Shown here: positions 6,709-42,966 of the stretch, piece after piece
Layout: every line of letters starts with the position of its first letter
How positions within the stretch are numbered: position 1 is the stretch's first letter
Assembly: GCF_901538265.1 (NCBI RefSeq)
Contig: NZ_LR593886.1
Coordinates: 2,480,001-2,544,000, forward strand
Direction: 5' to 3'
Source of the DNA: Gemmata massiliana
GTDB lineage: Bacteria; Planctomycetota; Planctomycetia; Gemmatales; Gemmataceae
DNA: 64,000 nucleotides
The notes under the pieces: generated by a model
Database searches by the model: none
What the model saw: only the letters and a program-made list of their open reading frames with translations
What the model was told of the DNA's origin: nothing
Translations under genes and position numbers: made by a program

Positions 6709-9700
6709 CTATGCACCGGTTAGAATCGCTTTGACGCGGCGCAGAAAGTATGTCAATTCGGCCACCATCCCATTGGTCGTGTCGGATATTCTACCTTTTT
6801 CACGTTTTTCATTTAAAGATTGAAGATACTTGGTTTCTTTTTCATTTTCGCCTCGCACTCTCCATAGAAAAGATGAGTGTCTAAATAATCGAAGGAGTTG
6901 TGTCGAATCGTTTTGCATTTCAAACGCCCACCACAGCAAATCGTGACACCGATCGAATAAAGAATTAAATCTCTGAGTGTGTAGGTAGGAATATGTTGCG
7001 GAAAGTTCACGAAGTTCTTGAGCACTTAGAGGGACATTTCGAGATCGTTGCACCTCTCCCTTAATGACAATCGCGCGCGAGCGATTGTATATTTTTGATT
7101 TCGGAGAGAGAATTTTGTCAAGATGCTTGATTTTATCCTCGGGTCGAGTTGATTCTTGAGCTAAGGTGATTGCTATATTCTCGGCTAAGATGGAATGGCC
7201 GCGTGCCTTGGCCTTGCTTTCTAAATCAAGAAGCGTTTTGATTTTTTGTTTCTTTGCTGGCGCTTGTGACAGCGATATGAACTGAGCCTGAAGGGCAACT
7301 ATGCTATCATCCTTACTATGCTTTAGGGCCTCTGAAACGGCTATTTTCGATGCTTCTTCGTTTTTTATTGCTTGCTCGCATCGTGCGATATCTATCCATG
7401 CGTCGCCCAATTGATCGTCCGATAGGGTTCCACTATCTACCGCGGCTCGTAGATATCCTATTGCATCCGCATGGGCGCCAGTCATTCGTAGTGATTCGCC
7501 AAGGATTTTAGCTATCGTAGCCCAATCGCTGAGGTGTGAATCTTGACCCACTAGCTGGACAAAAGCTCGCGCTACTATTGCAGCGTCGCGATAGCGGTGG
7601 GCGGAATATAAATGCCTGAGATAATGAATGGCTAGAGTGATTCCTCGCGATACGGCCAAGTCGTCGCATCTTGTCTTAGACATTGAGATGAAATAGTGAA
7701 CCAGCGCAAACTCATTTCCAGGACCGTGGTCAAGATACTCTCGATATTCATGTGGAATTACACGCGGCTTAATTCGCCCCTCTCGCCATGTGCGGCCAAA
7801 ATAGCGTTCAATACCAGCTTGGACAATATCTTCACGCGATTCTTCGACGAGTAGTGTTTGAACGTAATCCCGCACTTGCCGTGGAGCTTTGAGAATTTTG
7901 AGGGCCGACTTAGTGACGCCGCGGTTACTACCAACTTGGGGCTGAAGAGTGTGAAGCGAAATTGCGTCGAGTAAGGCGAAATCTCGTAGTTTATTTGCGT
8001 GATCTATAAAGAATGGTTCCGTGGGTAAAAAGTGCGATAATGTGTCAAGAGTCTCGCCATAGGGTAGTACAGAAAGTACTTGCAAGAGTCGATAACTTCT
8101 TTTAGTTTGTGCATCTTCAGATCGCATCAGGTGGGCGACTGCGTGAATTAGCCCGTTGGGAACGCCAGCTTGCTTAGTATGGGTGTTCGACGAGGTTTCC
8201 ATGTCAGACTCGAGCGCCGCAGCTAGCGATGAAACCTTAAGAGACTTTAGTAACTTGTCGAGGTGGGCAGGTAGCCCTTCAGAACGTTCGTGTAGCTGTT
8301 CCACTACATCGGCTTCTTGCATCCAGGGTTCAGCATCAGGATGGTGAGTTAAGTAAACTCGAACATCAGGAACATCCAGGCCGCGTATTTTGATTGTTGG
8401 GAAATGGCTGTCAATTGGGTCAATGCCTGATATGCAGATGATTCGGAGATCCTGACAGTAATCGAGAATTGCGCCGATAACGTGATAGAGGCGATGGTGG
8501 GATTCGCCAGTGCATAACTCAGGATGGAGCCCATCTAAAACTAGAAATGCCTTCTTGCTACTGGCTATTAAGGCGCAGGCTTGCAGGAGCGGAAGGCCAC
8601 ATTGCTGATGAAATAAATTCTCAAAATCATCGACGCTTAGTGCTTCGCTACACCGAATGTGGAACGCTTCTGATGGGTGGGCGGGATCTCGAAATCTTTC
8701 AATACAAGAATCAATAAAGCCTATTTCTGCGGTCCAATCAGCAACTAGCCACACGACTCTTGATCGTCGCAAATGGTTTTCACATTCGACCTGCTCGTCG
8801 AGACGAACATAGCGATGCTGAGACTGAGGCTTTAGATGTAAACGGGGTAGCGAGCTAAGCTGCTCTCTTGCAGCTTGCTCTTCTAATGGCCCATCTAATA
8901 GGGGCAAGGTCGCGCGGCTCTCATGTGAGATGGGTGAAGATGCTGTTGGGAGTTCTGTTGGCAACGCGCTATTGTCTTCAAGTGTTTCTATATTGTATGA
9001 AAATCGCGAGACGACGCTGTTGTCATCTTGTAGTGCAAAGCTGTGATCTGGAGAAAAGCTAATTCCTCCGGACCGGTTGGCGATCATAGTGCGGGGCCAG
9101 TATTTTTCGATGCCATCAACCCCTTCAAACCAATATTGCCCGATGGTGTAGCCGTGAATGCGTTCGGTTGCATCGGGGCCTTCCCATGTCTCAAGACCAA
9201 AAAGCGAAGCCCCTTGCCGCAATCGCCTAGGATCAGAACCAGCTTCGCTCGTTTCAACAGCTTCTGGAATGTGCTGATGGCCGCAAAAATGTGCTAAAAA
9301 TCTGCCGGGGGGATATATCTCTTTTCGGAAGTGCGAGAGTGCGCGTGAGCTTAGCCAGTTGGGCGGTTGATGGGTGAGTAAGACAGATGCAGTTTTTTGA
9401 CTCAGCCATGTGCTTGGGGCGCCATTGCATACTGCGTTAAGTTGCGCCACATGTAGGTCCAGTTTTTTCGTGTAGTCGCCTTTGCTAATCTGAAGGAATG
9501 TTGTATTTAGTCCAACTATTCCGAATTTGATTTTTGCTTTTTCAAATGTGGAGCTGAAGTCGCCCGGTAGTAATCCTTTTATGCTCTTCAATACAGGGAT
9601 TCGTATATTGGATATCCATTTGGTATAATTAGAAAAGCAGTTATCTATTGCGACTCTGTACTCCGATGATGGATCGGTCCAGAAGATTTCTCGAATTTGT

Positions 9701-10047
9701 GAATCGTGCTCCCATAGTTTCGTAAGCGTTTTTGCGACCGATGACGTTTCCTCGGGGCGGATGAGGTCGTGATTGCCAGGTATGAGACAAAGCTGTGGGT
9801 GTCGTCCATGTTTCTCAAGTACCTTCCACAGGTCGTCAAGTTCTTTATTTAGCAGATCAAACTCGTTGACTTTACCGGCCTGGACAAAATCCCCTGTAAA
9901 AAAGACGAGGTCGCAGCCACCGATTTTAGGCAGTTGTTTATCGAGATCTTTCAGGAAATCGTACTTGATTTTTGGCCAAAGCCAGTTTCGGGCATCAAGG
10001 CCAAAGTGAAGATCAGTTAAGTGGATCCAGTTAATTGAATTTGTCAT
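6709..10047 (-). CDS. Calcineurin-like phosphoesterase fused to a P-loop-less STAND-like region and helical repeats (candidate defence protein)
   Basis: A 1112-aa protein on the strand opposite to the phage genes. Residues 1-330 are a calcineurin-type metallophosphoesterase with every metal motif: D12 and H14 (TDLHFG), D53 (TGDF), N92-H93-D94 (GNHD), H226 (THQPP), and H257/H259 (CGHQH). Residues about 410-650 resemble a STAND NTPase: a Walker B-like strand (FLVLDG, D505), a sensor-like strand (RIICIS) and a GLP motif (591-593). The expected P-loop position (about 431-443) has no GxxxxGK. The last 400 residues are helical, TPR-like. Such effector-NTPase-repeat layouts are typical of antiviral STAND (Avs-like) proteins. 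The gene is visibly AT-richer than its neighbours, pointing to recent transfer. The defence role is inferred. Confidence 0.7.
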   Translation of the reverse strand: MTNSINWIHLTDLHFGLDARNWLWPKIKYDFLKDLDKQLPKIGGCDLVFFTGDFVQAGKVNEFDLLNKELDDLWKVLEKHGRHPQLCLIPGNHDLIRPEETSSVAKTLTKLWEHDSQIREIFWTDPSSEYRVAIDNCFSNYTKWISNIRIPVLKSIKGLLPGDFSSTFEKAKIKFGIVGLNTTFLQISKGDYTKKLDLHVAQLNAVCNGAPSTWLSQKTASVLLTHQPPNWLSSRALSHFRKEIYPPGRFLAHFCGHQHIPEAVETSEAGSDPRRLRQGASLFGLETWEGPDATERIHGYTIGQYWFEGVDGIEKYWPRTMIANRSGGISFSPDHSFALQDDNSVVSRFSYNIETLEDNSALPTELPTASSPISHESRATLPLLDGPLEEQAAREQLSSLPRLHLKPQSQHRYVRLDEQVECENHLRRSRVVWLVADWTAEIGFIDSCIERFRDPAHPSEAFHIRCSEALSVDDFENLFHQQCGLPLLQACALIASSKKAFLVLDGLHPELCTGESHHRLYHVIGAILDYCQDLRIICISGIDPIDSHFPTIKIRGLDVPDVRVYLTHHPDAEPWMQEADVVEQLHERSEGLPAHLDKLLKSLKVSSLAAALESDMETSSNTHTKQAGVPNGLIHAVAHLMRSEDAQTKRSYRLLQVLSVLPYGETLDTLSHFLPTEPFFIDHANKLRDFALLDAISLHTLQPQVGSNRGVTKSALKILKAPRQVRDYVQTLLVEESREDIVQAGIERYFGRTWREGRIKPRVIPHEYREYLDHGPGNEFALVHYFISMSKTRCDDLAVSRGITLAIHYLRHLYSAHRYRDAAIVARAFVQLVGQDSHLSDWATIAKILGESLRMTGAHADAIGYLRAAVDSGTLSDDQLGDAWIDIARCEQAIKNEEASKIAVSEALKHSKDDSIVALQAQFISLSQAPAKKQKIKTLLDLESKAKARGHSILAENIAITLAQESTRPEDKIKHLDKILSPKSKIYNRSRAIVIKGEVQRSRNVPLSAQELRELSATYSYLHTQRFNSLFDRCHDLLWWAFEMQNDSTQLLRLFRHSSFLWRVRGENEKETKYLQSLNEKREKGRISDTTNGMVAELTYFLRRVKAILTGA

Positions 10048-17380: not shown

Positions 17381-18975
17381 TGGCCACGCTCCCGCGCTTC
17401 GTGCGCCGCATTCTCGACCGGGTCACCGGTCACCGGCCCGTCACACTCCGCGACGAGCGGGGCGTAACCGGGAGGCCCGCGCCGGTGCGCGGGCGGTACG
17501 ACGCGGCGGGCACGTCCGACGAGAACCGGAACCACTGGGGCGCGGCCGACGGGCTCAGCGCCAATGCCGCGCACTCCCCGGCCGTGCGCCAGATCCTGCG
17601 CAACCGGTCCCGGTACGAGGCCCAGAACAACGGGTACTGCAAGGGGCTGCTCCGGACCCGGCGGAACGACGTGGTCGGGACCGGGCCGCGCCTGCAGGCC
17701 ACGCTCCCGGGCGAGTTCACGTACTACGACACCGACTTCGGCACCCTGAACGCGGTCGTGCCCGAGGGCACCGCGTCCGCGGTCGAGCGCAAGTGGGTCG
17801 AGTGGTGCGACCGGATCGGGCTCGCGGACAAGCTCCGCGTCCTGGTGGAAACCGGGGACCGGGACGGCGAGACGTTCGCGGTCATGGTGAACAACCCGGG
17901 GCTCCCGGCGGACGGCCCGCAGCTCGACGTGCGGTTGTACGAAGCGGACCAGGTGACCACGCCGGACCTGTGGTGGAACGACCCGCTCGCGGTGGACGGG
18001 ATCCGGTTCGACGCGCACGGGAACCCGGTCGAGTACCACTTCCTGCGCGCGCACCCGGGCGACCTGATCGGGAAGGCGCTCGCCTACGACCGGGTGCCCG
18101 CCTCGGCCGTGTTCCACTGGTACGATCCGGACCGCCCGAACCAGGCCCGGGGTATCCCCGCGACCACGCCCGCGCTCCCGCTGTACGCACAGGTGCGCCG
18201 GTACACGCTCGCGGCGCTCACCTCGGCCGAGGTCGGGGCCACGATCTCGGGGGTCATGTCCACGAAGAACATCCTGCCCGAGTACCAGGCGCCCGCGGAC
18301 CCGACCGGTGCCGCGCCCCAGCGCCCGCGGTTCGACCGGGTGGAGGTCGAGCGCGGCGGGCTGCTGACGCTCCCCGAGGGCTGGGAGGCGACGGCGTTCG
18401 ACGCGAAGCAACCGGTGGCCGGGTACGGGGAGTTCAAGCGCGAGATCCTGACCGAGAGCGGGGCCGCACTGAACGCGCCGCGGAACATCTCGACCAAGAG
18501 CAGCTCCGAGTACAACTACTCGTCGGCGCGGCTCGACCACATCCCGTACCGGGCCGAGGTCGCGATCATCCGCGACCGCCTGCGCCGCGTCATCCTCGAT
18601 CGCCTGTTCCGCGCGTGGCTCAAGGAGGCGGTGCTGATCCCGGGATACCTCCCAGCGAAGGTGCCCCCGGCCGCGTTGTGGTCCCTGTCGTGGCAGTGGG
18701 ACGGGGTGCCCTCGATCGACCCGGTGAAGGACGCCACGGCCGACGACATCGGGCTCAAGAACGGCACCAAGACACTGTCCGACGTGCTCGCGGAGCGCGG
18801 CAAGAGCTGGGAAGAGCACCTGCGCCAGAAGGCGCGGGAAATCGCGCTGGCGCGCCGGCTCGAGAAGGAGAACGGGCTCACCCCGGGCACGTTGTACCCG
18901 CTCACCCCGAGCACCGGGACCGCCCCCCAACCCGTCGAGGAGCCGGCCGATGCCGAACCGACAGCAGCGGCGTAA
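17380..18975 (+). CDS. Phage portal protein, lambda family
   Basis: A 531-aa protein forming the dodecameric vertex ring for DNA entry. Family features of lambda-type portals are clear: SRYEAQNNGYCKGLLRTRRNDVVGTGPRL near the N-terminus, EADQVTTPD, a GIPATTPALPLYAQVRRYTLAAL stem helix segment, KSSSEYNYSSARL, and a C-terminal stretch LDRLFRAWLKEAVL. The last 100 residues are variable and end in a Pro/Ala-rich tail. The end overlaps the next gene by 26 bases. Order terminase, connector, portal, protease/capsid is standard. Confidence 0.9.
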   Translation: MATLPRFVRRILDRVTGHRPVTLRDERGVTGRPAPVRGRYDAAGTSDENRNHWGAADGLSANAAHSPAVRQILRNRSRYEAQNNGYCKGLLRTRRNDVVGTGPRLQATLPGEFTYYDTDFGTLNAVVPEGTASAVERKWVEWCDRIGLADKLRVLVETGDRDGETFAVMVNNPGLPADGPQLDVRLYEADQVTTPDLWWNDPLAVDGIRFDAHGNPVEYHFLRAHPGDLIGKALAYDRVPASAVFHWYDPDRPNQARGIPATTPALPLYAQVRRYTLAALTSAEVGATISGVMSTKNILPEYQAPADPTGAAPQRPRFDRVEVERGGLLTLPEGWEATAFDAKQPVAGYGEFKREILTESGAALNAPRNISTKSSSEYNYSSARLDHIPYRAEVAIIRDRLRRVILDRLFRAWLKEAVLIPGYLPAKVPPAALWSLSWQWDGVPSIDPVKDATADDIGLKNGTKTLSDVLAERGKSWEEHLRQKAREIALARRLEKENGLTPGTLYPLTPSTGTAPQPVEEPADAEPTAAA

Positions 18976-21280
18976 GGCCGCGAGCGTGGCCCGTCGCGAG
19001 ACCCGCCAGGTCAAGGCCGCGGTTACGGCCGCGCGTGCGGTCGCGGGCTCGATCCCGAAGACGGTTCCGCCCCAGCGCATCAGCGGGCGGGCCGCACCGG
19101 TCGCGATCACCGGGGCCGAGGCGCCGACCGCGGACCAACCGGCCCGGTTCGAGATGGTGGCGTACACCGGTGAGGCCATGCGCATCGGGTGCTACGGCGA
19201 GCCGGTGATCGTGGACCTGGAGACCGCGGACCTGAGCGAGCCGCTCATTCCCGCGCTCTACGACCACTGGGCGCACCTGTCGGACATCGTGGGCCAGGTC
19301 GAGACGCTCGCGATCGAGAACAAGCAGCTCGTCGCGCGCGGGCGGTTCACCCCGATCGAACCGGACGCGACCGGGCGCGGGGGCAACCGGGCCGGTGAGG
19401 TGCTCAAACTGGCGCGCCAGGGGTACCGGTGGCAGGCCAGTGTGGGCGCGGACCCCGCGCAGGTCATCCAGATCGAGGCCGGGGCCGTGGGCGTGGCCAA
19501 TTGGGGCCGCGAGTACCCGGGGCCGTGCGTGATCGGCCGCGGGTGCAAGTTCCGAGAAATGTCTTTCGTGGTGCTCGGCGGCGACCGGAAAACGTCCGTG
19601 CTCGCCGCCCGGCACCGCTCAACCCCCATCCAGGGAGCAGCAATGAACCCGACTTTTGACGAATGGCTCGCCGCGATGGGGTTCGCCGACCCCGCCGCGC
19701 TGGACCCGACCCAGAGCGCGAATCTGAAGCTCCTCTATCAGTCGGAGTACCCCGAGGGGGAAACCGAAGAAGAGGAACCCGCGACGGAGCCGCCCCCGGT
19801 GGAACCCGTTACGGCCGCCGCGCAGCGCCCCGCGATCCGCGCGACCGGTCGGGGCGGGCGCGCGAACACGATCGCGAACGCGAACCGGATTCACGCGGCG
19901 AACCTCGAGCGCATCGACCGCATTAACGCGATCCACGCCGAGCACGGGTGCCCGCAGATCGACGCCGGGGGCGGGCGCATGGTGTCGTTGGCGGCCCACG
20001 CGATCCGCTCGAACTGGGACGTGTCCCGGACCGAACTGGCCGCGATCCGCGCGAGCCGCCCGAACCCGGAGCCGAACCGGACCCGGGACACCGACGCGAA
20101 CCGGTTGCAGGCCGCGACCGTCGAGGCCGCGATCCTCATCACGGCCGGGTTCAGCGCGGACCGGGTGGGGTTGTGGGTGGCGTCGTCGGACCGCGAACGG
20201 GTGATGAACGAGGCGGTGGGCTCGCGGTTCCGCGGGTACTCGCTCCACGCGGTCATGGACGAGACCATTCGCGCGGCCGGGCACCACTTCCACGGGTCGC
20301 GCAAGTCGGACGACTTCATCCGCGCCGCGCTCGACGCGGACCGGATGATCCGCGCGAGCCAGGGGTTCACCACGGTGAGCCTCTCGAACGTGCTGGGGAA
20401 CACCGCGAACAAGGCCATGAACGCGGCTTACGAGGCCCAGGCGGTCGCGTGGAAGCTGATCGCGGCCGTGCGCAGTCACAGCGACTTCAAGGCCGTGACC
20501 CGGGTGCGCCTGGACAGCACCGGGGCGTTCAAGAAGGTCGGTCAGGACGGGGAGCTGAAACACGTCGGGCTGTCCGAGGGCGCGTACACGAACCAGCTCG
20601 CGACGTTCGGGGCCATCATCGCGCTGACCCGGCAGATGATGATTAACGACGACCTGCAGGCGTTCCTGGAAATCCCCCGGCTGCTCGGGCGCATGAGCGC
20701 GCTGCGGATCGAGGAGCTGGTGTTCGTGACGCTGCTCTCGAACCCGGGGAGCTTCTTCAGCGGGGGTAACGGGAACCTGTTGACCGGGGCCGGGTCCGCG
20801 TTCGGGGTGGCCGCGCTGACCGCGTCGGAAGCGGCGTTCGACAACCAGGTGGACAGCAACGGGAAGCCGATCCTCACGGTCCCGGACCGGGTGCTCGTGC
20901 CGACCACGCTGAAGACCCCGGCCGCGATCATGTACAAGGACACGACGCTCGTCACCACGACGGACACCCAACTGTACAGCGCGGACAACCCGCACGCGGG
21001 CAAGTACCAGCCCGTGGTGAGCCCGTACCTGAACAACACCGCGATCAAGGACCAGGACGGGGCCGCGATCACCGGGCAAAGCTCCACGGCGTGGTACCAG
21101 TTCGCGAACCCGGCGGTCCGGGCCGCGATCGCGGTGGCGTTCCTCAACGGCCAGGAGACCCCGACGATCCAGGACGCGGAGACCGACTTCTCGACCCTCG
21201 GGCGCCAGTGGCGCGCGTTCCACGATTTCGGGGTGGGGATGGAAGACACGACCGCGGTCGTGAAGAACGCCGGCGCCTAA
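18950..21280 (+). CDS. Prohead protease/major capsid fusion protein
   Basis: A 776-aa protein. Residues about 60-225 look like a phage prohead protease: LIPALYDHWAHLSDIVGQVE, GRFTP, and GYRWQASVGA with the likely catalytic Ser. The remaining 540 residues match a Mu-type or fused major capsid: an acidic scaffold-like linker (EGETEEEEPATEPPP), then QMMINDDLQAFLEIPRLLGR, PDRVLVPTTL and WYQFANPAVRAAIAVAFLNG. Fusions of this type are known in phages. An internal ATG at 19643 with a good ribosome-binding site could give the capsid part alone. Confidence 0.85.
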   Translation: MPNRQQRRKAASVARRETRQVKAAVTAARAVAGSIPKTVPPQRISGRAAPVAITGAEAPTADQPARFEMVAYTGEAMRIGCYGEPVIVDLETADLSEPLIPALYDHWAHLSDIVGQVETLAIENKQLVARGRFTPIEPDATGRGGNRAGEVLKLARQGYRWQASVGADPAQVIQIEAGAVGVANWGREYPGPCVIGRGCKFREMSFVVLGGDRKTSVLAARHRSTPIQGAAMNPTFDEWLAAMGFADPAALDPTQSANLKLLYQSEYPEGETEEEEPATEPPPVEPVTAAAQRPAIRATGRGGRANTIANANRIHAANLERIDRINAIHAEHGCPQIDAGGGRMVSLAAHAIRSNWDVSRTELAAIRASRPNPEPNRTRDTDANRLQAATVEAAILITAGFSADRVGLWVASSDRERVMNEAVGSRFRGYSLHAVMDETIRAAGHHFHGSRKSDDFIRAALDADRMIRASQGFTTVSLSNVLGNTANKAMNAAYEAQAVAWKLIAAVRSHSDFKAVTRVRLDSTGAFKKVGQDGELKHVGLSEGAYTNQLATFGAIIALTRQMMINDDLQAFLEIPRLLGRMSALRIEELVFVTLLSNPGSFFSGGNGNLLTGAGSAFGVAALTASEAAFDNQVDSNGKPILTVPDRVLVPTTLKTPAAIMYKDTTLVTTTDTQLYSADNPHAGKYQPVVSPYLNNTAIKDQDGAAITGQSSTAWYQFANPAVRAAIAVAFLNGQETPTIQDAETDFSTLGRQWRAFHDFGVGMEDTTAVVKNAGA
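19633..19645 (+). promoter_or_regulatory. Internal ribosome-binding site and start inside the protease/capsid gene
   Basis: AGGGAG directly precedes the in-frame ATG at 19643 (peptide MNPTFDEWLAAMGF). It lies at the boundary between protease and scaffold/capsid parts, so a separate capsid precursor of about 545 residues may be made. Confidence 0.5.
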
Positions 21281-21315: not shown

Positions 21316-21387
21316 TGCAGGGTGGAGAAGAAGCATCTCACCTGGCTCATAACCAGGAGGCCGTCGGTGCAAGTCCGGCCCCTGCGA
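21316..21387 (+). tRNA. tRNA-like gene with CAT anticodon inside the structural operon
   Basis: A full cloverleaf can be drawn. The acceptor is TGCAGGG (21316-21322) with CCCTGCG (21380-21386), first pair T-G. The D stem is GAGA/TCTC with a 7-base loop lacking GG. The anticodon stem is CCTGG/CCAGG with loop CTCATAA. The T arm is GTCGG, TGCAAGT, CCGGC. The discriminator is A, followed by CC. CAT would be Met (elongator) or, after lysidine modification, Ile. The anticodon stem lacks the GGG/CCC of initiators. CCA is not encoded. It lies in the gap between capsid and the next gene, an odd place for a tRNA. Confidence 0.65.
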
Positions 21388-21421
21388 CCTCTGCTTTTTC
21401 AGCCCCTTTGGAGCGAGACCG

Positions 21422-23504: not shown

Positions 23505-23996
23505 ATGCCCGCACAGACGCAGATCCTCACCGGCATCGGCGCGGTTCTGTACAAGAATTCCGGCAGTTACGCGAGCCCCACGTGGGGCGCCCAGAACATC
23601 GTGCGGTCCGTGACCCCCGCGTTCCCGTGGGACTTCGCGGACGCGCCCTCGCGGGCCACGCCGATCAAGATCTACGGCAAGGTGGCCGTGGACCTGGCGA
23701 TTCAGGTGATGATGCGCGCGGACCCGGCGGACGCGAACTTCGGCCAGTGGGTCGATGCGCACTGGTCCCGGACCGCCACGTTGGACCTGCTCATCCTCAA
23801 CGCGAAACTCGCGACCGAGGGCGCCCGCGGGCTCCGGGGCGAGTTCCTGGTGAGCCTCTCGAGCGAGCCCCAGGAGATCGAGGGCACGATCTTCGCGACG
23901 TTCGACATCAAGCCCACGATCACCACCAACGGGTTGCCGAAGTCGGCCGTGATGGGCGCCTCGAGCACCCCGACCTTCACCGATATCACGGTTTGA
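23505..23996 (+). CDS. Putative major tail tube protein
   Basis: A 163-aa protein. It has the features of siphophage tail tube proteins: a short hydrophobic start (TQILTGIGAVLYKN), beta-rich body (IKIYGKVAVDLAIQVMM, GTIFATFDIKPTITT), and about 160 residues. It lies where the tube gene should be, before the chaperone pair and tape measure. The ATG follows a weak site within GAGGTGCCC. Confidence 0.6.
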   Translation: MPAQTQILTGIGAVLYKNSGSYASPTWGAQNIVRSVTPAFPWDFADAPSRATPIKIYGKVAVDLAIQVMMRADPADANFGQWVDAHWSRTATLDLLILNAKLATEGARGLRGEFLVSLSSEPQEIEGTIFATFDIKPTITTNGLPKSAVMGASSTPTFTDITV

Positions 23997-23999
23997 GTC

Positions 24000-24497
24000 A
24001 TGGCGTTCGACTTCTCCTTTGATGCGCTGAAGAACTCGTTCTTCGACACGAAGGCGGTCATGGCCGCGGCGAAGAACGAGTACCGCAAAACGGCGTCCCG
24101 GTTCGGGGCGTACACGCGCACGCGGATGAAGTCGAGCCTGCGCTACAAGCCGGGCAAGAGCAAGCCGGGGCACCCGCCCCACGTTCACCGGTCGCGGTCC
24201 AAGTACACGCGCCCGAAGAAGGCGACGGACGGAACCACGGTCCGGCGCCAGGTGAGCCCGCTCAAGGAACTGATCTTCTTCGCGTTCGACCACGAGACGC
24301 AATCGGTGGTGATCGGGCCGGTGAAGTTCGGGACCGCGGCGGACGTGAAGGTGCCCGGGTTGCTGGAAAAGGGCGGCGCGGGCACGTTCAAGGCGGGTCG
24401 GTCCGGCGAGCGCAAGCGCGGGGTGTGGTCCGCGCGCCCGTTCGTGAAGCCCGCGGGCGATGCCGAGGCACAGAGCGGGAAGTTCCTCAAGGGGTGA
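24000..24497 (+). CDS. Basic phage protein, tail-morphogenesis-like
   Basis: A 165-aa, strongly basic protein (TRTRMKSSLRYKPGKSKPGHPPHVH, SRSKYTRPKK). It starts with an aromatic helix (FDFSFDALKNSFFDTKAV) and ends with ARPFVKPAGDAEAQ. The RPF(V/I)xPA ending and the PGxPPxxH motif are typical of HK97 gp10-like and phage virion morphogenesis proteins. Those act at the head-tail junction or in tail completion. Start lies three bases after the previous stop. Confidence 0.6.
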   Translation: MAFDFSFDALKNSFFDTKAVMAAAKNEYRKTASRFGAYTRTRMKSSLRYKPGKSKPGHPPHVHRSRSKYTRPKKATDGTTVRRQVSPLKELIFFAFDHETQSVVIGPVKFGTAADVKVPGLLEKGGAGTFKAGRSGERKRGVWSARPFVKPAGDAEAQSGKFLKG

Positions 24498-24501
24498 CGT
24501 G

Positions 24502-24924
24502 ATGAACCGGTTCAAGGATCTCGAGGGGCGCGAGTGGGGGGTGGCGCTCCACGTGCGCGCGGTCGAACGGGTCGAGGAGCGCACCGGGGTCGAGATCGGG
24601 GCCCTGCTCCGGGACAAGTTCGCCGGGCTGTTCGAGCTGTTCGGCTCCCCGGCCCGGTTCGTGCGCGTGCTCTGGGTGCTGGTCGAGGGCCAGGCCGAGA
24701 AACTCAAGGTGACCCCGGAGCAGTTCGGGGAATCACTTGGCGGGGACGCGCTCGAGGCCGCGTACACCGCGTTCGTGGGCGCGCTGTCGGATTTTTTCCC
24801 GAGCCGTCTGCGGACCGCGATCCGCGCGCTGACGGTGGCCCCGTTCCTGGTAGCGGATCGTTCGACGTGCTCCGCGTGTGCTACGAACTCGCCGGAATCG
24901 TCGGCGTCGATCCCGCCCGGTTGA
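24502..24924 (+). CDS. Tail assembly chaperone, first frame (gpG-like)
   Basis: A 140-aa protein with ATG after AGGGGTGACGTG. Residues 1-110 are a compact helical region (GVALHVRAVERVEERTG, LFELFGSPARFVRVLWVLVEGQA, FGESLGGDALEAAYTAFVGALSDFFP). The position between tail tube and tape measure is that of gpG-type chaperones, which coat the tape measure during tail assembly. A canonical slippery heptamer (T TTT TTC at 24792-24798) lies in the frame required for -1 shifting into the following open frame, which reaches 25169. The overlap with the next gene is 58 bases. Confidence 0.6.
   Translation: MNRFKDLEGREWGVALHVRAVERVEERTGVEIGALLRDKFAGLFELFGSPARFVRVLWVLVEGQAEKLKVTPEQFGESLGGDALEAAYTAFVGALSDFFPSRLRTAIRALTVAPFLVADRSTCSACATNSPESSASIPPG
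24792..24798 (+). other. Candidate -1 ribosomal frameshift site (T TTT TTC)
   Basis: The heptamer TTTTTTC is phased as X XXY YYZ in the frame of the gene starting at 24502. A -1 slip enters an open frame running to 25169, giving a G-GT-type fusion as in many siphophages. Against it: the zero-frame sequence after the site still looks like real protein for about 15 codons. Confidence 0.4.
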
Positions 24925-33895: not shown

Positions 33896-34020
33896 ATTAC
33901 ACATTGCGCGGGCAAAATTTTTTGCGATAATCGATAGGTAAAACCAATTGAAATCCGAGATACCGATCGAATATTTCGATTGCGGTTGACAGTATCCCAA
34001 ACTCCCAAGGGCCAGATCTC

Positions 34021-35103
34021 ATGTTCCGTGCTCGCCTGCTCGTGCTTCTGGCGCTGCTCCTCACGGTGCCCGTCGTGTCGGCCGCCCCGGACCGAATGCT
34101 CGTTCCCGAACCGCTCCCGCAAAAGCTCGCGCTCGAGGGCGCGGTCAAGTACAAGACATACCAGCTCGTGCGCGTGAAGGCGTCTGGGATCGACCCGAAA
34201 GCCGGGATCATCTGGCGCGTGTACCCATCGCAGGACGTGCAGCGCGCGACGACCCCGCGCGGCATCCTCGAGTTCGTGGCCCCGCCCGGTACGTACCAGG
34301 TCGAGGCGCTGGTCATCACGACCGGTGCCGACGGCGCGATTTCGGTGGATGAGCAAGCGATGTCGGTGGAGATCGAATCGTGTTGCGACAAGGCGCCACC
34401 GATCGTTCCGCCCACACCGCAACCGCCGGTGAAACCGAAAGCGAACCCGGTGGCCGCGCTGGGCAAGATCCAATTCGGTAACGCGGGCTGCACGGCCACG
34501 GTGATCGGGCCGCGGCGCGCGGACGGGAAGTGGGACGTGCTCACCGCGGCGCACTGCGTCACCCACGTGGGCGTCGGGGCGAAAGGTTCCATGACGCTCC
34601 CGGACGGCCGAAAACTCGCAATCAAGGTGGGGAACATCTACGAAACGCCGGACTGCGCGTGGCTCACGACCGAGGACGCCACGCTTGCGGACCTGCCGTT
34701 CGCGGAGATCGCGGCCACGAACCCCGCGGTCGGAACCAAGATTTGGCACAAGGGGTACGGGGTGGACAACCCCGGGAATCGCGAAGACGGGGAAATCACC
34801 TTCGCGCAGGACGGAAACGGTCAGCTCCAAATGTCGTTGTCCGTCTCGAGCGGGGACAGCGGGGGCGGCATCTTTCGGGACGACACGGGGGAGCTGATTA
34901 GCTGTGTCTGTTGCACCACCGCGAAGGGGCAAAAGGCCCGCGTGTGGGGTTGCGCGGCCGACGTTGCCCGCAAGTACCGCCCGGCCCAAACGAGCGAACT
35001 GTGGACCCCGGTTGAGATTCCCGAGGCCGGCATTGGCCCGATCAACGCTTGGGAGCCGGTGGAGATGCCGACGCGCGGCCCGGTGGTGACCGTTCTCAAG
35101 TGA
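34021..35103 (+). CDS. Secreted trypsin-like serine protease in the phage late operon
   Basis: A 360-aa protein. Residues 1-21 are a classic signal peptide (ARLLVLLALLLTVPVVSA) with cleavage near VSA-A. Residues 30-130 resemble an Ig-like domain ending in a Cys pair and a Pro-rich linker. The protease core has LTAAHC (H178), DCAWL (D211) and SGDSGGG (S280), the full catalytic triad of chymotrypsin-fold proteases. It is followed by three tiny genes, two with membrane segments, and a strong terminator, which is where a lysis cassette would be. Cleavage of envelope or virion proteins is inferred. Confidence 0.8.
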   Translation: MFRARLLVLLALLLTVPVVSAAPDRMLVPEPLPQKLALEGAVKYKTYQLVRVKASGIDPKAGIIWRVYPSQDVQRATTPRGILEFVAPPGTYQVEALVITTGADGAISVDEQAMSVEIESCCDKAPPIVPPTPQPPVKPKANPVAALGKIQFGNAGCTATVIGPRRADGKWDVLTAAHCVTHVGVGAKGSMTLPDGRKLAIKVGNIYETPDCAWLTTEDATLADLPFAEIAATNPAVGTKIWHKGYGVDNPGNREDGEITFAQDGNGQLQMSLSVSSGDSGGGIFRDDTGELISCVCCTTAKGQKARVWGCAADVARKYRPAQTSELWTPVEIPEAGIGPINAWEPVEMPTRGPVVTVLK

Positions 35104-35114
35104 GGTGACCGCGT

Positions 35115-35369
35115 GTGATCGGGTGCCAGTGCCACCGGTGCGACAAGTACAACGTGCGCTCCGACTGGCCGCCCCCGTTGTGGCCGTGTGCCGGGTGCGG
35201 GCACCCGCTCCCGGTGATCGTGGCAACCGGTGCCGAAGCCGGTTGCCTGCCCTCGGCCGTGGTGAGGCGCGAGCGCCCACGCGGGCCGGACGTGTGGTTC
35301 GTGGTCGGTGTGTGCGCCGGGGTGCTCTCGACCGTGGGGTTACTCGAGCTGTTCAAACTCATGAGGTAA
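35115..35369 (+). CDS. Small zinc-ribbon membrane protein
   Basis: An 84-aa product from a GTG 11 bases after the protease. CQCHRC and CAGCGHPLP near the N-terminus form a zinc ribbon. The C-terminal part is one membrane helix (VWFVVGVCAGVLSTVGLLELF). It may be part of a lysis cassette with the two following genes. Function unknown. Confidence 0.5.
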   Translation: MIGCQCHRCDKYNVRSDWPPPLWPCAGCGHPLPVIVATGAEAGCLPSAVVRRERPRGPDVWFVVGVCAGVLSTVGLLELFKLMR

Positions 35370-35373
35370 TGCC

Positions 35374-35598
35374 GTGGCCGAAAGCACCAAGAGTTACGCC
35401 GAGCGACTGAAGGATTGGGCTCTGTATGCGTCCGCGATCCTCGCGCTGTCGATCGCCTCCGCGCTCGCGCAGCGCTGGCTCGGGAAGGACGTTCAACTTC
35501 CGCCCCCGCCCGTGATCCTGGTGACCTCGGGAGTTGATGGGATCACTCCCGTGGTTCAGGTTTTCCCCTCACCTGATCCCAACGTAAAGGACAAGTAA
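35374..35598 (+). CDS. Small membrane protein, possible holin or spanin-like
   Basis: A 74-aa protein. After a short charged start (SYAERLKDW) comes one hydrophobic helix (ALYASAILALSIASALAQRWL), then a Pro/Val-rich tail. One-helix proteins at the end of phage late operons often act in lysis. The stop overlaps the next start by one base. Confidence 0.45.
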   Translation: MAESTKSYAERLKDWALYASAILALSIASALAQRWLGKDVQLPPPPVILVTSGVDGITPVVQVFPSPDPNVKDK

Positions 35599-35798
35599 TG
35601 CTCAACTTCCATTTCAACGTGGTGAACGTGGCCGGTGGCGACGGTCGTCAGTTCACCGCGCTCGGGGACGGGAAGATCCTCAAACTGCTCGCGACGTGGG
35701 GGCCGGTCATTGCTGGGCTGTTCGGGCTGAAGCTCCCGCCCCTGCCGGATCTGACAAGCGATGTGAAGGAACTGGCAGTTGATACGGCCAAGTCATAA
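35598..35798 (+). CDS. Small late-operon protein, unknown
   Basis: A 66-aa product coupled to the previous gene (TAATG). It has a weakly hydrophobic middle (LLATWGPVIAGLFGLKLPP) and an acidic end (LTSDVKELAVDTAKS). It closes the phage late operon, with a terminator 13 bases downstream. Role unknown, perhaps in lysis. Confidence 0.45.
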   Translation: MLNFHFNVVNVAGGDGRQFTALGDGKILKLLATWGPVIAGLFGLKLPPLPDLTSDVKELAVDTAKS

Positions 35799-35810: not shown

Positions 35811-35857
35811 TAAAACGCCACGGCCCGCGGATTTGTTCCGCGGGCCGTGGCGTTTTA
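35811..35857 (+). terminator. Strong intrinsic terminator of the phage late operon
   Basis: TAAAACGCCACGGCCCGCGGA (35811-35831) pairs perfectly with 35837-35857 around a 5-base TTTGT loop. The 3' arm ends in TTTTA. It is the strongest hairpin in the region and marks the end of the phage late transcript. Confidence 0.85.
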
Positions 35858-38075: not shown

Positions 38076-38192
38076 AGCTAACTCGCACGAACCCCCTCAC
38101 TCACAACGAAGCGGTTCGCAGTGCTGCATCGTGCAGCGCGGCTCCGATTCGCCCGCCCAAGAATTCGCCTCAACCAGCGGATAACTGACTTC

Positions 38193-39338
38193 ATGTCTAT
38201 ACGAACAGAACACGTCTCTCGTACCTCTCCCGCGCAACGGGATCATTCGGACTCGAAGCCGAAGTTTCCAAAGGACGAGGCCGGGTTCCTGAACGAACTG
38301 AAGCGCCGGACCGATGCGTACTTCGCGGAGTCCGGGCGCAGCGAGCGCGACTGCTGGCGCATGTACCTGAAGACCGCGGTCATCCTCGCGTGGCTCGCGA
38401 CGTCTTACGCACTGCTCGTGTTCGCCGCGCCGACCGTGTGGCTCGCGGCCCCGCTCTCGATCTCCCTCGCGCTGGCCATTTCCGCGGTCGGGTTCAGCAT
38501 CCAGCACGACGGCGGGCACCACGCGTATTCGCGGTTCGCCTGGGTGAACCGACTCGCGGCCCTCACGCTCGATCTGATCGGGGCCAGCTCGTATCTGTGG
38601 AAGTGGAAGCACGTCGTGTACCACCACACGTACCCGAACGTGGCGGGCCAGGACACCGACATCGACGTGGGGCGCGTCGCGCGCCTCGCGCCCCAGCAGC
38701 CGCGCCTCTGGTTCCACCGGTGGCAGCACCTGTACCTGTGGCCCTTGTACGCGGTGACCGCGTCCGTGTGGCACTTGTACGGCGACTTCCGGGACGTGAT
38801 CGCCGGGACCATCGGGACGCACCGTATCCCGCGGCCCAGGGGCTGGGATCTGGTCGTGTTCCTTACGGGCAAAGCGGTGTCGATCGGACTTTTGCTAGGA
38901 ATCCCGATGCTGGTTCACTCGTGGTGGGTGGTGCTGGCGTTCTACGCGGTGGTGACGGCGGTGGTGGGCGTGGTACTCACGGTCGTGTTCCAGTTGGCGC
39001 ACTGCGTCGAGGAGGCCGAGTTCCCGCAACCGATTGGGGATGGGGGCCGGATGGAAATGGAAGGCGCGTGGGCGGTCCACCAGGTCCACACGACCGTGGA
39101 TTTCGCGCGTAAGAGCCGGGTGCTGTGCTGGCTCCTGGGCGGGCTGAACTTCCAAGTGGTTCACCACCTGTTCCCGCGCGTGTGCCACATCCATTACCCG
39201 GCGCTGTCGCGGATCATAGAAACCACGTGCCACGAGTTCGGGGTGCGGTACTCGGCGCACCGCACGTTCCTGGCCGGTGTCGTCTCGCACTTCCGCTGGC
39301 TGCGCCAGCTCGGGCGCCCGCAAGTAATTCCCGGCTAA
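38193..39338 (+). CDS. Membrane fatty acid desaturase (front-end/linoleoyl-CoA type)
   Basis: A 381-aa integral membrane di-iron enzyme that puts a double bond into an acyl chain. The three histidine boxes are HDGGHH (105-110), HVVYHH (140-145) and QVVHH near residue 320, the last with Gln in place of the first His as in front-end (delta-5/6-type) desaturases. Four or more membrane helices are visible (AVILAWLATSYALLVFAA, VWLAAPLSISLALAISAVG, and others). ATG 38193 is chosen because the upstream frame is Arg-rich and not family-like. No cytochrome b5 domain is fused. It is likely an ordinary chromosomal lipid gene. Confidence 0.85.
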   Translation: MSIRTEHVSRTSPAQRDHSDSKPKFPKDEAGFLNELKRRTDAYFAESGRSERDCWRMYLKTAVILAWLATSYALLVFAAPTVWLAAPLSISLALAISAVGFSIQHDGGHHAYSRFAWVNRLAALTLDLIGASSYLWKWKHVVYHHTYPNVAGQDTDIDVGRVARLAPQQPRLWFHRWQHLYLWPLYAVTASVWHLYGDFRDVIAGTIGTHRIPRPRGWDLVVFLTGKAVSIGLLLGIPMLVHSWWVVLAFYAVVTAVVGVVLTVVFQLAHCVEEAEFPQPIGDGGRMEMEGAWAVHQVHTTVDFARKSRVLCWLLGGLNFQVVHHLFPRVCHIHYPALSRIIETTCHEFGVRYSAHRTFLAGVVSHFRWLRQLGRPQVIPG

Positions 39339-39651: not shown

Positions 39652-41308
39652 TCAAAAAACCGTTCGGGACCAAGAGGTCGTAGGTTCAAATCCTATCAGC
39701 CCGACTCGATGACCCTCGGTGACACTAGTTGTCACCGAGGGTTTTCCATTGACAGCATCAACACTTACGTCGATTCCGTCCGCTTTATTCTGGTGTTCGT
39801 TATTCGGATGTTCGGTGCCAGGAGTGGCCCCGGAATGCCCCCCGCGGAATAGAGTCGGTGCAACCGGATTCGTGACCGAGGCGGAATCGTCACTGGTTCG
39901 AGATTCTGTGATCGTGCCTTTAGTGGTCCCGGGGCCGTCGGTCAGGGGCAGGGTCGGAAGTTTTTCCACGGTCCCGCGGACGTCGAGCAGGCGGGTATCG
40001 GTGTACACGCCCATCGTGAGCTTAATGTCGCTGTGCCGCATCGCCGCTTGTGCCGTTCGCGGTGCCGTGCCCGTTTTGCTCAACACCGTGCCGAAGGTCG
40101 TTCGCATCGCGTGAACGTCGACCGTGCGCCCGCGGTCGTCGCGCTTCGGGATGCCGGCGGCAACCAGATCGCGATCCAGGATGCGAACCAAGCCCGGCGG
40201 CACATCGAATAGCAGCGTTTCACCGGGCAATCGCGTCGGTGTTGGTTCACCGACCTCGCGAGCGACGGCTTGAACGGTCGCTAACTTATCGGCCAACCAG
40301 TTCCGCAGGTCGTCCGCGAGATCGTCGCGGATCGCAATCGCGTTCCCCTCTCGGCTCTTCTCGTCGGCGGCATCCAGTTGCAAGAACGCGCTCCCGGCCG
40401 TCAAATCGAGTTGCCCGATCGTGAGTGTTGCCAGCTCGTTCTTCCGTAACCCGGTCAGGACCAGTGCCTTGTAAATCAGTGCCCGCTCGCGCCCGAGGGC
40501 TTGCAGCCGGGCTACCGTTTCGGGTTTCAGATCGGCCGCGGTTTGTCCTTTACGATTTCCGCGGCGGATCGTCTGGGTGTCGGTCAGCGGGCAGACCGTG
40601 GCGACCGCGAGCAGGCGCTTCAGTTCGTCCTCGGTGAGGGATCGGCGCTGGCGGCGCGGGTCCGACTTCTGGTCCGCTTTGGGCACCCGGTTGAGGTCGT
40701 GGCCGACCAGGCGCTCGGTCCCGACGCACCAGTTCGCGAACGCGACGAGGGACTCGCGGTAATAGTTGCGGCTCCGGGCGCTCATGCCGTCCTCGATTCG
40801 GGCGGCCATCCAGTTCTCCACCGCTTCCCGGTCGAAATCGGTGGGCGTGGCGAACCCGCAATCTTTCGACACGCACCGCACGGCGCGCAGCACGTTGGCC
40901 CGGTACGTGTCTGAAACTTCCGCGGCGATCGGCGAGCGCGTGTACGCGGTGAGGTACTCCTCGAGCGGAACCACGGCTTGTCGCGCGCGTCGATGGCCTT
41001 GCGATCGAGGGGCCGGACTTGATCTGCTCGCCCTCGCGCTCCCACTTCTTGAGCATCTGTTCGGCGGCCTGCTTGTCCCGGCACTCGGTCGGGCGGACAA
41101 CGATCTTCCCGGTCGCGCCCCGGTACTTCGCGAAGTACGTGGCGGACTCGGTGATGATCCTGCCTGTGCTTCCCGTACCCTTCGTGAGGGGCGCGGTCCA
41201 GAGCTTGCCGCGCACGCGCCACCGGGCGATCCGCTCGGCGCCCTTGACCACGATCTCGGCCCCGACCGGGACCGCGCGCGTCGATTGCTTCTTGAACACG
41301 GCACCCAT
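39652..41308 (-). pseudogene. int: Tyrosine-type integrase, broken by two frameshifts
   Basis: Three frames must be joined to read the gene. The N-terminal part (GAVFKKQSTRAVPVG, ERIARWRVRGKLWTAPL) runs to about 41012. A short middle (PLDRKAIDARDK) lies in a second frame. From about 40990 the rest is in a third. Each break is explained by one missing base, near 41008-41012 and 40981-40990. The catalytic domain itself is complete: Arg in TGLRKNELATL, HAMR box, MRHSDIKLTMGVYTDT with the nucleophile Tyr. The C-terminus runs into the tRNA-Pro core, the usual sign of tRNA-targeting integrases. It is probably inactive unless the breaks are sequencing errors. Confidence 0.8.
39663..39704 (+). other. 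Attachment-site core: 3' half of tRNA-Pro(CGG)
   Basis: From the anticodon loop TTCGGGA through stem CCAAG, variable AGGTC, T arm GTAGG-TTCAAAT-CCTAT and acceptor CAGCCCG plus discriminator A, this is an exact 3' half of a proline tRNA. The matching 5' half (acceptor CGGGCTG, stem CTTGG) is missing to the left. The integrase gene ends inside it. The 39339-39651 gap before it has no supported gene. Confidence 0.75.
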
Positions 41309-41329
41309 AGTAACCGCGTTCCCTTGCGA

Positions 41330-42966
41330 GGGTCCAATCGGTTCGGTACCAGGTTCCAATCTCGTACCCGAACCGTGTGACCGAAGGTGAGTGAATCGCA
41401 CCCGATCGACGCTCGTGTGCCACGTCCGTGCCGCGCGGTTGTGGCAACGAGCCACACCAGGTTGGGCGCGGAGCGGATCCGCCCGGGGCATCGATGAAGA
41501 ATTATCGAAGAGCCGGTCCCGGTACGGTTCGCCGTCCGGATCACCGCCACTATCGCCATCGGGCTCGTGTGGTGGTGGTGGTGATGGTGACGATGAATCG
41601 CGTGGGGTGCGGAACTCGGTCATCGGGTACACGGCCCACCGGACCCCGTGTCTCGTGTGCGCGGCCCGGTCCACGAACGGGTTCTCGAAGTTGCGCCGGG
41701 CCAACGAGCGGAACGTGTACGCCAACGACCGCGTATCCAACCGTCCGGCCAAGTCCTCGACCGCGGCGCACAACTCGGGATCGGCCTTCGCAGCCTCCAC
41801 GATCTCCGCGGTCGTCAGTCCTCGACGTTGTGGGTCGCGCCGGAGCAGGCACCGCAACAGCGCGCCCATCGCCAGCGCGTTCCGGTCCGCGGCCGTCTGG
41901 AGCGCGATCCGCGTCAGGGCCGGGTCCGGGAGCCCGGCCCACACGACCGCACCGCGCACCACCTCGGACCACAACTCGTAACTGCCCCACGGTGGTAAGC
42001 CGTCCGCCGGGCGCCCCGCGACGACCCACCCGCGCAGAATTGTCAGCGCCGCGGATAAGAGCGCGTCCCGGTTCCGGCGCAGGTGCTCACGCAGGCGTGG
42101 GTACCGGAGCCCGCCCCGGTCCTCGGGGCGCTCGTCGGTCGACTCCATGCGGGCGTGGCACGTGCGCCGGCTCGTGTCGGCGCGCAACTCGCAGTTGTTC
42201 CCGGTCCCATACCGGACCACGTTGGGCGGCCCGTCGTACACCCGGTTCCGCCCAACAGCCGGTCCTTTCACCGGTCCGCGGTGAGCGCCGCATCGAGCTG
42301 GTTGTTCCCGATCGGCCCGGCCCGGTTGTCGAGGAGCACCATGTGCTCGCCCTCGGCCGCGACGCTCGTGATGCGCTTGCGTAGTTCTTCCCGGTCCGGA
42401 GTGTACGTCATCGCCGAGAACCGGCGCCCCAGGACCGGGAGCGCGATCGCGTCCGCGAGAAGCCCCTTACCCACCCCGCGCACGTTTCCATCAATGAGGA
42501 AGAACGCGAACCACGCGAGCGGGGTGGGTAGGCCCGCGAGCCACGCCCCGCGGTGCTCGGGGCGCTCGAACGGGAAGTCGCACACCGCGTCGGCGAGTCG
42601 CGCGACCGCGGCCTCCGCGTCGGTGCGAGTCGGCACGTCGGGTACCGTCAACGTCACGCGGTCGGGTACCAGCACGCCGATCGAGCGGTGGTACCCGTTC
42701 GTGGCCAGGAGCGTTCCGTCGGGGAGCAGGACCGGGTGCGCGACCACCGCATCGAGGCGCGGCACCCCGGGCCACGACCCGCCGCGTGAACCGCCTGGAC
42801 CGACCACGCGGGCGGGTGCGTCGGGGCGCATTCCGTGCCCCCTCTCCTTGTCCGGCACCACCCTGACCCCGTTCGCGACCCGGGTGAACTGCTCGCGCAG
42901 TAGGGCCGGTCCCAGTTCGCGGATCACGGTCGCGTCCGCCGGAACCCGGACCGCGGCCCCGGACGG
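41330..42966 (-). pseudogene. Helicase-like part of a mobile-element primase/helicase, decayed
   Basis: Downstream of the primase and in a different frame comes AAVRVPADATVIRELGPALLREQ, then DREELRKRITSVAAEGEHMVLLDNRAG and NNQLDAALTADR. A TGA at 42268-42270 stands where Trp is expected (DR-W-KDRLL). One more shift leads into a third frame: NRVYDGPPNVV, GTGNNCELRADTSRRT, SAALTILRGWVVAGRP, WGSYELWSEVVRGAVVWAG. These are hallmarks of the C-terminal part of bifunctional primase-helicases on phage satellites and islands. One nonsense change and two frameshifts make it non-functional. The tail merges with the integrase frame. Confidence 0.7.

Follow-up and report, generated by a model that had tools for sequence, protein, structure and literature searches.

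A putatively exported trypsin-like protease in a Gemmata massiliana prophage without a recognisable endolysin: a candidate egress enzyme

The prophage and its protease gene

The window, that is, the whole stretch of 64,000 nucleotides analysed here (G000:C1:2480001-2544000), lies in a 10.1 Mb genome assembled as a single contig and belonging to the same genus as genome G009. It contains the greater part of a 43.4 kb prophage bounded by exact 47-bp att repeats (G000:C1:2476278-2476324 and 2519662-2519708). This prophage, which looks complete, begins with attL, which lies 3.7 kb outside the window on the left, and ends with attR at window position 39708 (Table 1). By eye attR resembles the 3' end of a tRNA, and ARAGORN calls no tRNA there. 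Besides the repeat at window 39662-39708, full or partial att-like repeats are found at G000:C1 2435122, 2476278, 2561335, 2614389 and 2638837, over about 200 kb; they point to a string of elements inserted at a single type of site. The integrase gene at 39652-41559 was rejected as the prophage's own, because it lies outside attR, with its stop-codon end overlapping the att repeat, and a weak phage-integrase match is found directly inside the left prophage end instead; it may belong to the next element.

From terminase and portal the modules run through the protease-capsid fusion and the cement and joiner genes to the tail tube, then a conserved neighbour, the chaperone, a putative tape measure and fibre-like genes, followed by the exported protease and three small genes; the names of the tail genes are taken partly from position and clustering. 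Head maturation had been raised in the preliminary description as a competing role for the exported protease. This role was rejected, since the protease-capsid fusion serves it and the exported protease has a signal-peptide-like start and another location. Two further prophage-like regions of the same host (G000:C1 around 6346001-6383000 and 9981000-10018000) encode proteases 94-95% identical to that of the window. The second of them has no DNA similarity to the window prophage over the head genes and has the late end in common with it, so the late end seems to travel as a module. In addition, a gene inside the window prophage, on the strand opposite to the late genes at 6709-10047 (-), encodes a 1112-aa protein with a calcineurin-like phosphoesterase domain; this ORF was missed by the codon model and is perhaps a defence-type cargo gene. 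A tRNA-Met gene (21316-21389) sits in the head module directly 3' of the capsid fusion gene, and a fatty acid desaturase gene (38121-39338; PF00487, E 2.9e-31) lies as cargo just inside attR.

Table 1. Features of the prophage discussed in the text, in window coordinates.
Feature	Position	Strand	Description
Head maturation protease fused to major capsid protein	18950..21280	+	phrog_4523 E 5.5e-64; PF25209 E 6e-38
Tail tube protein	23505..23996	+	clusters with PF06199 tail tube protein
Tail-assembly-chaperone cluster protein	24460..24924	+	cluster 3; function by position
Spacer 5' of protease	33896..34020	+	conserved block in six copies; inverted-repeat arms in some
Exported trypsin-like serine protease (predicted)	34021..35103	+	360 aa; Pfam, alignment, predicted structure
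p84	35115..35369	+	84 aa; one clear C-terminal membrane segment
p74	35374..35598	+	74 aa; one moderate membrane segment near residues 15-33, N-terminal side
p66	35598..35798	+	66 aa; shorter hydrophobic stretch near residues 26-44
attR	39662..39708	+	47-bp exact copy of attL at G000:C1:2476278-2476324

The protease matches the Pfam families Trypsin_2 (E 1.8e-10) and Trypsin (E 1.5e-4), both above the cut-off. These trypsin families were its sole Pfam matches, with no muralytic catalytic domain among them, and no PDZ domain of the HtrA/Deg type was found (Pfam, E 0.01). NCBIfam gave no match for the window protein and a single one, to HtrA and far below the cut-off, for one homologue. When the protein was aligned with 13 homologues (53-95% identity to it), residues H178, D211 and S280 were unchanged in 14/14 sequences and, by eye, all 14 had a signal-peptide-like N-terminus, with a hydrophobic segment at residues 4-22 in the window protein. 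In the wider survey described below, the three triad patterns are present in 71 of the 81 entries; among the ten without a pattern match, inspection by eye shows the triad in L059 and L119, and several are truncated or divergent. The AlphaFold2 model (mean pLDDT 74) has a trypsin/HtrA fold, and its best Foldseek matches were HtrA/DegS and Deg proteases (E about 4e-8). It consists of an all-beta N-terminal domain (about residues 37-118), a Pro-rich linker of low confidence, a protease domain (about 145-310) that holds the three triad residues, and a C-terminus with a tandem W-x-P motif (by eye), the last 40 residues being of low confidence. By its fold and its His-Asp-Ser triad the protein classes as an S1 (trypsin-like) peptidase with predicted proteolytic activity, and its signal-peptide-like start suggests export by the Sec route. 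The preliminary description, which had read a signal-peptide protease with an intact triad here, was borne out by these data.

The three tiny genes that it had placed after the protease, two of them with membrane segments, were also recovered: the segment is clear in p84 and moderate in p74, and p66 has a short hydrophobic stretch. The N-terminus of p84 carries two CxxC motifs and is zinc-ribbon-like by eye, and the C-terminal part of p74 forms a short Pro-rich tail. No match was found for p84 in Pfam (E 0.01) or PHROGs, and p74, the other candidate for a holin, likewise had no match in these collections. All six Gemmata-clade copies have p84 (6/6), and in L002 (2854-3330), L043 and L044 a further gene, absent from the window, separates p84 from p74; its 158-aa product has four membrane segments and a weak HXXEE match (E 0.0024). 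Furthermore, a 73-aa protein of the p74 cluster comes after the protease in G006, in G018 the protease, 59% identical to that of the window, is followed by a p66 relative, and in G033 it adjoins a 67-aa protein with one segment that looks holin-like by eye. Pairwise dN/dS values across five or six copies (three of this genome, one of G009 and two proviruses of one IMG genome) were 0.08-0.15 for the protease, 0.07-0.30 for p74 and 0.13-0.50 for p66, that is, purifying selection, by which these three are more than chance ORFs; the range for p84 (0.15-0.93) is unclear because of few synonymous changes.

Upstream of the protease, the spacer holds a non-coding block with a T-tract that is conserved in six copies (the window, L002, L003, L012, L043 and L044), some of them with inverted-repeat arms, e.g. 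GCAATAGG and CCTATTGC. One promoter-like site lies within the spacer at 33948-33975, and the conserved block could be a promoter with an operator and have a regulatory role. The operon terminator of the preliminary description did not hold up: the one terminator-like site (35838-35850) is to be set against 2.3 such sites on average in shuffled sequence, and so is not above chance.

Muralytic genes and the host wall

The 126 ORFs of 40 aa or more in the prophage gaps and flanks matched six Pfam families (E <= 0.01), none of them muralytic, and the main plus-strand genes of the prophage, scanned individually, had no muralytic Pfam domain. The 3.7 kb between the window and attL, where the preliminary description had advised a search for a normal endolysin, contains a weak integrase match and no lysin in its ORFs. 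By these searches the prophage has no recognisable endolysin or peptidoglycan hydrolase, in agreement with the earlier claim that neither muramidase nor amidase is seen. It may carry a lysin of an uncharacterised type, or one encoded outside the set scanned, which comprised ORFs from 40 aa upwards and a minority of those lying antisense to strong genes. Among protease-bearing virus records, many of which are fragments, no match was found to Amidase_2 (0/34), Phage_lysozyme (0/24), SLT (0/20), M15_4 (0/20) or NLPC_P60 (0/20), and 53 proteins of other prophages and records matched 20 Pfam families, none of them muralytic, a set that covers the relatives in part. Two Pfam scans of the relatives' genes, one of 88 representatives of 1,114 called genes (first 25 of 77 families) and one of 98 of the 99 unscanned genes, with five that cross fragment borders dropped (first 25 of 64 families), are no proof that lysins are absent there. 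The window's genome itself gave no match to SLT or NLPC_P60 and one to M15_4, which lies outside the three prophages.

We also analysed wall genes in 17 genomes picked from the 119 related ones, 16 of them in the families that host protease phages (f1-f3) and one in a further family (f4). The PBP transpeptidase domain (PF00905) was found in none of the 16 f1-f3 genomes, the window's genome included, and is present in the f4 genome; likewise, MurG exceeded the cut-off in 0/16 and reached it in the f4 genome, with weak MurG-like matches below the cut-off in 6/16, the window's genome among them. The lack of PF00905 matches and of MurG matches above the cut-off in the 16 genomes agrees with a 2025 paper reporting that murA, murC, murD, murF, murG, murJ and ftsW were lost in Gemmatales, Isosphaerales and Pirellulales (PMC12283558). 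Against this, Gemmata obscuriglobus is reported to have sacculi sensitive to lysozyme, together with the sugars of peptidoglycan and diaminopimelic acid (PMC4432640), and according to a 2016 review every planctomycete examined by profile searches has peptidoglycan genes (PMC5147048). The papers are in conflict, and it is disputed whether the wall of Gemmata-type planctomycetes is of peptidoglycan or of protein. A host clade without key peptidoglycan synthesis genes gives a reason for a non-muralytic enzyme.

The protease in related phages and a second cassette at the same site

The protease family is present in 13 of 119 related genomes, the host among the 13, and in total at 60 IMG/VR loci and 15 genome loci; none of the 50,697 INPHARED records has a relative. 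Together with six further stretches these 75 loci make up the 81 survey entries, some of which come from the same genome or from near-identical phages. The protease lies in a tail slot, flanked immediately by the tail tube on its upstream side and by the tail assembly chaperone on its downstream side, in 58/81 entries. Of the remaining 23, six have the tube, four of them being truncated downstream and two lacking the chaperone; another is truncated upstream, and 16 have no tube. The window, whose tail tube is 28% identical to the tube of the tail-slot family, has no protease between tube and chaperone, and in a 148.8 kb record (G166) the protease comes after fibre-like genes, with tube and chaperone adjacent. 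Placement at the end of the structural genes together with small membrane genes is common to the Gemmata-clade copies, and the small membrane genes searched for beside the protease are missing from 57 of the 58 tail-slot entries and present in one. The preference for the tail slot weakens the argument from a lysis position made in the preliminary description: the Gemmata-clade copies do have small membrane genes there, and this arrangement is local, mainly that of a Gemmata sub-clade, and not a rule. A survey of planctomycete phages for the same gene set, which it had proposed, thus shows this arrangement mainly in the sub-clade.

The place by the tail tube could instead reflect a virion or injection role, and both the tail slot and the all-beta N-terminal domain speak for such a tail-associated or entry protease. 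We hold this to be quite unlikely, because the conserved signal-peptide-like start would send the protein out of the assembly compartment, the gene has another location in the Gemmata-clade copies and in G166, head maturation is already served by its own protease, and tube and chaperone are adjacent without a protease in 21 of 80 tube loci (the best 80 of 505).

In this tube-based sample, which comprises the best 80 of 505 tail tube matches in IMG/VR, the protease match begins 0-206 bp past the tube match (<=95 bp in 48/50), and so short a gap makes late co-transcription likely. It also bears on two further explanations. According to the first, the exported protease alters the surface of the infected or lysogenic cell without breaking it, through receptor removal, superinfection exclusion or the clearing of debris against re-adsorption of progeny. 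Surface-modifying genes usually have an export signal and vary in their location. In line with this, the protease is present in some relatives and absent from others at the same site, in the Gemmata clade it follows a promoter-like site and a conserved spacer, and one host carries it in triplicate, the two copies outside the window being 94-95% identical to the one within. We nevertheless regard surface modification as unlikely, since the tube gap in most tail-slot loci leaves little promoter room, so that expression in the lysogen is improbable there, and since it gives no account of the missing recognisable lysin. The second, a cargo gene for lysogen fitness (a moron) such as a secreted digestive protease, would fit with the three copies in one host genome and with the desaturase gene nearby in the prophage, but the late-operon placement in most surveyed relatives and the little room for an own promoter in the tail-slot form leave it only a slight chance.

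The same sample revealed what else can occupy the gap between tube and chaperone. Among these best 80 of 505 tube loci, 50 have the protease there, 21 have nothing (gap 0-43 bp), one has a 76-aa membrane protein (L151), five carry an insert close to 2.4 kb long and three (L137, L147 and L160) are truncated or have no chaperone, L160 showing the insert. The insert has four genes in L138, L139, L141, L162 and L160, with L194 as a variant. Besides a small exported membrane protein and a holin-like protein, they encode two further exported proteins, one with conserved Cys, His and Asn and one with a TIGR03000 domain match (E 1.6e-8, below cut-off, in the one protein tested), export being judged by eye throughout these cassettes. 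Homologues of the Cys protein occur in 22 loci and a second subfamily in 51 IMG/VR loci (L233-L283); the two subfamilies are 26-29% identical and have C49, H129 and N147 in common (16-sequence alignment). In the second, the neighbour of the Cys gene in 47/51 loci encodes an exported membrane protein whose CxxC motif is nearly invariant among 11 aligned sequences, and the other four loci end just past the Cys gene. The Cys cassettes occupy differing gaps between capsid and chaperone genes, the tube-chaperone site included. Many of the L233-L283 contigs carry the same head-tail genes, and the Cys-cassette members scanned had no family match.

The Cys-type protein gave no convincing match in Pfam, PHROGs, NCBIfam or PDB sequence searches, and its AlphaFold2 model, made with six close homologues, had a mean pLDDT of 37. 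We read it as papain-like from its invariant Cys, His and Asn, a set that we take to be typical of papain-like enzymes. Its CxxC partner is read by eye as thioredoxin-like from the CxxC and a YPT motif, with no thioredoxin match in Pfam (E 0.01), NCBIfam or the PDB search. The trypsin-like and Cys types were never found together (0/59 trypsin loci; 0/21 and 0/51 Cys loci). Among the best 80 of 505 tube loci, the trypsin type occurs in 50 and the Cys type in 9; of the 21 with neither, two (L193 and L189) have one type elsewhere in the record. Similarly, 51 loci spanning capsid to chaperone comprise 33 with the trypsin-like type, 5 with the Cys type, 13 with neither and 0 with both (one-sided Fisher p 0.0036); as the contigs are related, some being near-identical, this p is too small and the counts are not independent cases. 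Eight of the 13 neither-type loci were searched whole for the protease, and G166 alone has it, elsewhere in the record. In related phages the Cys cassette appears to fill the same role as the trypsin-like protease.

A possible role in egress and comparison with known systems

The explanation that we favour is that the exported protease takes the place of an endolysin and acts, when the phage leaves the cell, on an envelope made largely of protein; we see the chances of this reading as evenly balanced. The protease would be made late in infection, exported, presumably by the Sec route, and would cut an envelope protein on which the integrity of the cell depends, so doing the job of the muralytic endolysin of other phages; in the Gemmata clade p84, p74 and p66 may assist as small membrane proteins, holin-like or envelope-linking. 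The argument is stronger when made from export, the late operon, the lack of a recognisable muralysin and the exclusion with the other exported cassette. We count in its favour the fold and triad, the purifying selection, the signal-peptide-like start, the tail-slot placement, the small membrane neighbours in the Gemmata clade and G033, the lack of muralytic Pfam matches, the host-gene absences and an alternative cassette not seen together with the protease. Against it we count the 57 of 58 tail-slot entries without small membrane genes, the 13 of 51 loci with neither peptidase nearby, the weak MurG-like matches in 6/16 host genomes, the peptidoglycan reports (PMC4432640, PMC5147048) and the reported release of a planctomycete phage without lysis (PMC10945688). 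The protease unit of the window may also have its own promoter, as a moron would. The interpretation in the preliminary description, a protease-based lysis or egress system, is partly supported: for it speak the reality of its parts, the lack of a recognisable endolysin, a separate head protease and the host clade's lack of key peptidoglycan synthesis genes, and it loses the lysis position as stated.

A broader proposal, more tentative and in our view rather doubtful, is that this phage family gave up muralytic endolysins for interchangeable exported cassettes that degrade a protein wall, in hosts without peptidoglycan synthesis genes. One cassette would be trypsin-like, with small membrane proteins in the Gemmata clade, and the other would be papain-like (Cys-His-Asn) with a membrane-bound thioredoxin-like (CxxC) protein and sometimes a holin-like one, which could reduce disulphides and cleave a cystine-rich wall. 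If true, genes that replace muralysins would bear on phage exit and on the disputed planctomycete wall, and would provide enzymes acting on planctomycete walls that are usable for cell lysis and genetics. In this regard, no description of protease lysis in planctomycete phages was found in the titles and abstract openings of the open-licence literature, nor any description, in the literature searched, of phage exit from bacteria without peptidoglycan genes.

SAR or signal-peptide endolysins belong to the holin-endolysin-spanin system. The window enzyme is like these exported endolysins in being a phage hydrolase with an export signal, encoded in a late operon and sometimes with small membrane neighbours; it differs from them in being trypsin-like, with no recognisable holin or spanin family and a putative lysis role. 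Head maturation proteases are cytoplasmic and encoded with portal and capsid, whereas the window protease has a signal-peptide-like start and another location. With HtrA/Deg and trypsin-like (S1) peptidases it has the protease fold and the triad in common, but it has no PDZ family match, an N-terminal domain of its own and a place in a phage late operon. The pseudomurein endoisopeptidases of methanogen viruses, PeiW and PeiP, are lytic enzymes matched to a non-peptidoglycan wall, as our candidate would be; enzymes of this kind are mentioned in PMC4456609. They differ from the window protease in that they cut pseudomurein. To our knowledge, neither of them is trypsin-like. The closest parallel in concept may be egress by a protease plus a holin, hypothesised for viruses of S-layer archaea, in which a tailored protease would likewise degrade a protein wall; the passage concerned in PMC4456609 gives this idea without an example and states that no S-layer-degrading enzyme was known, whereas here there are candidate genes, and they are found in phages of bacteria.
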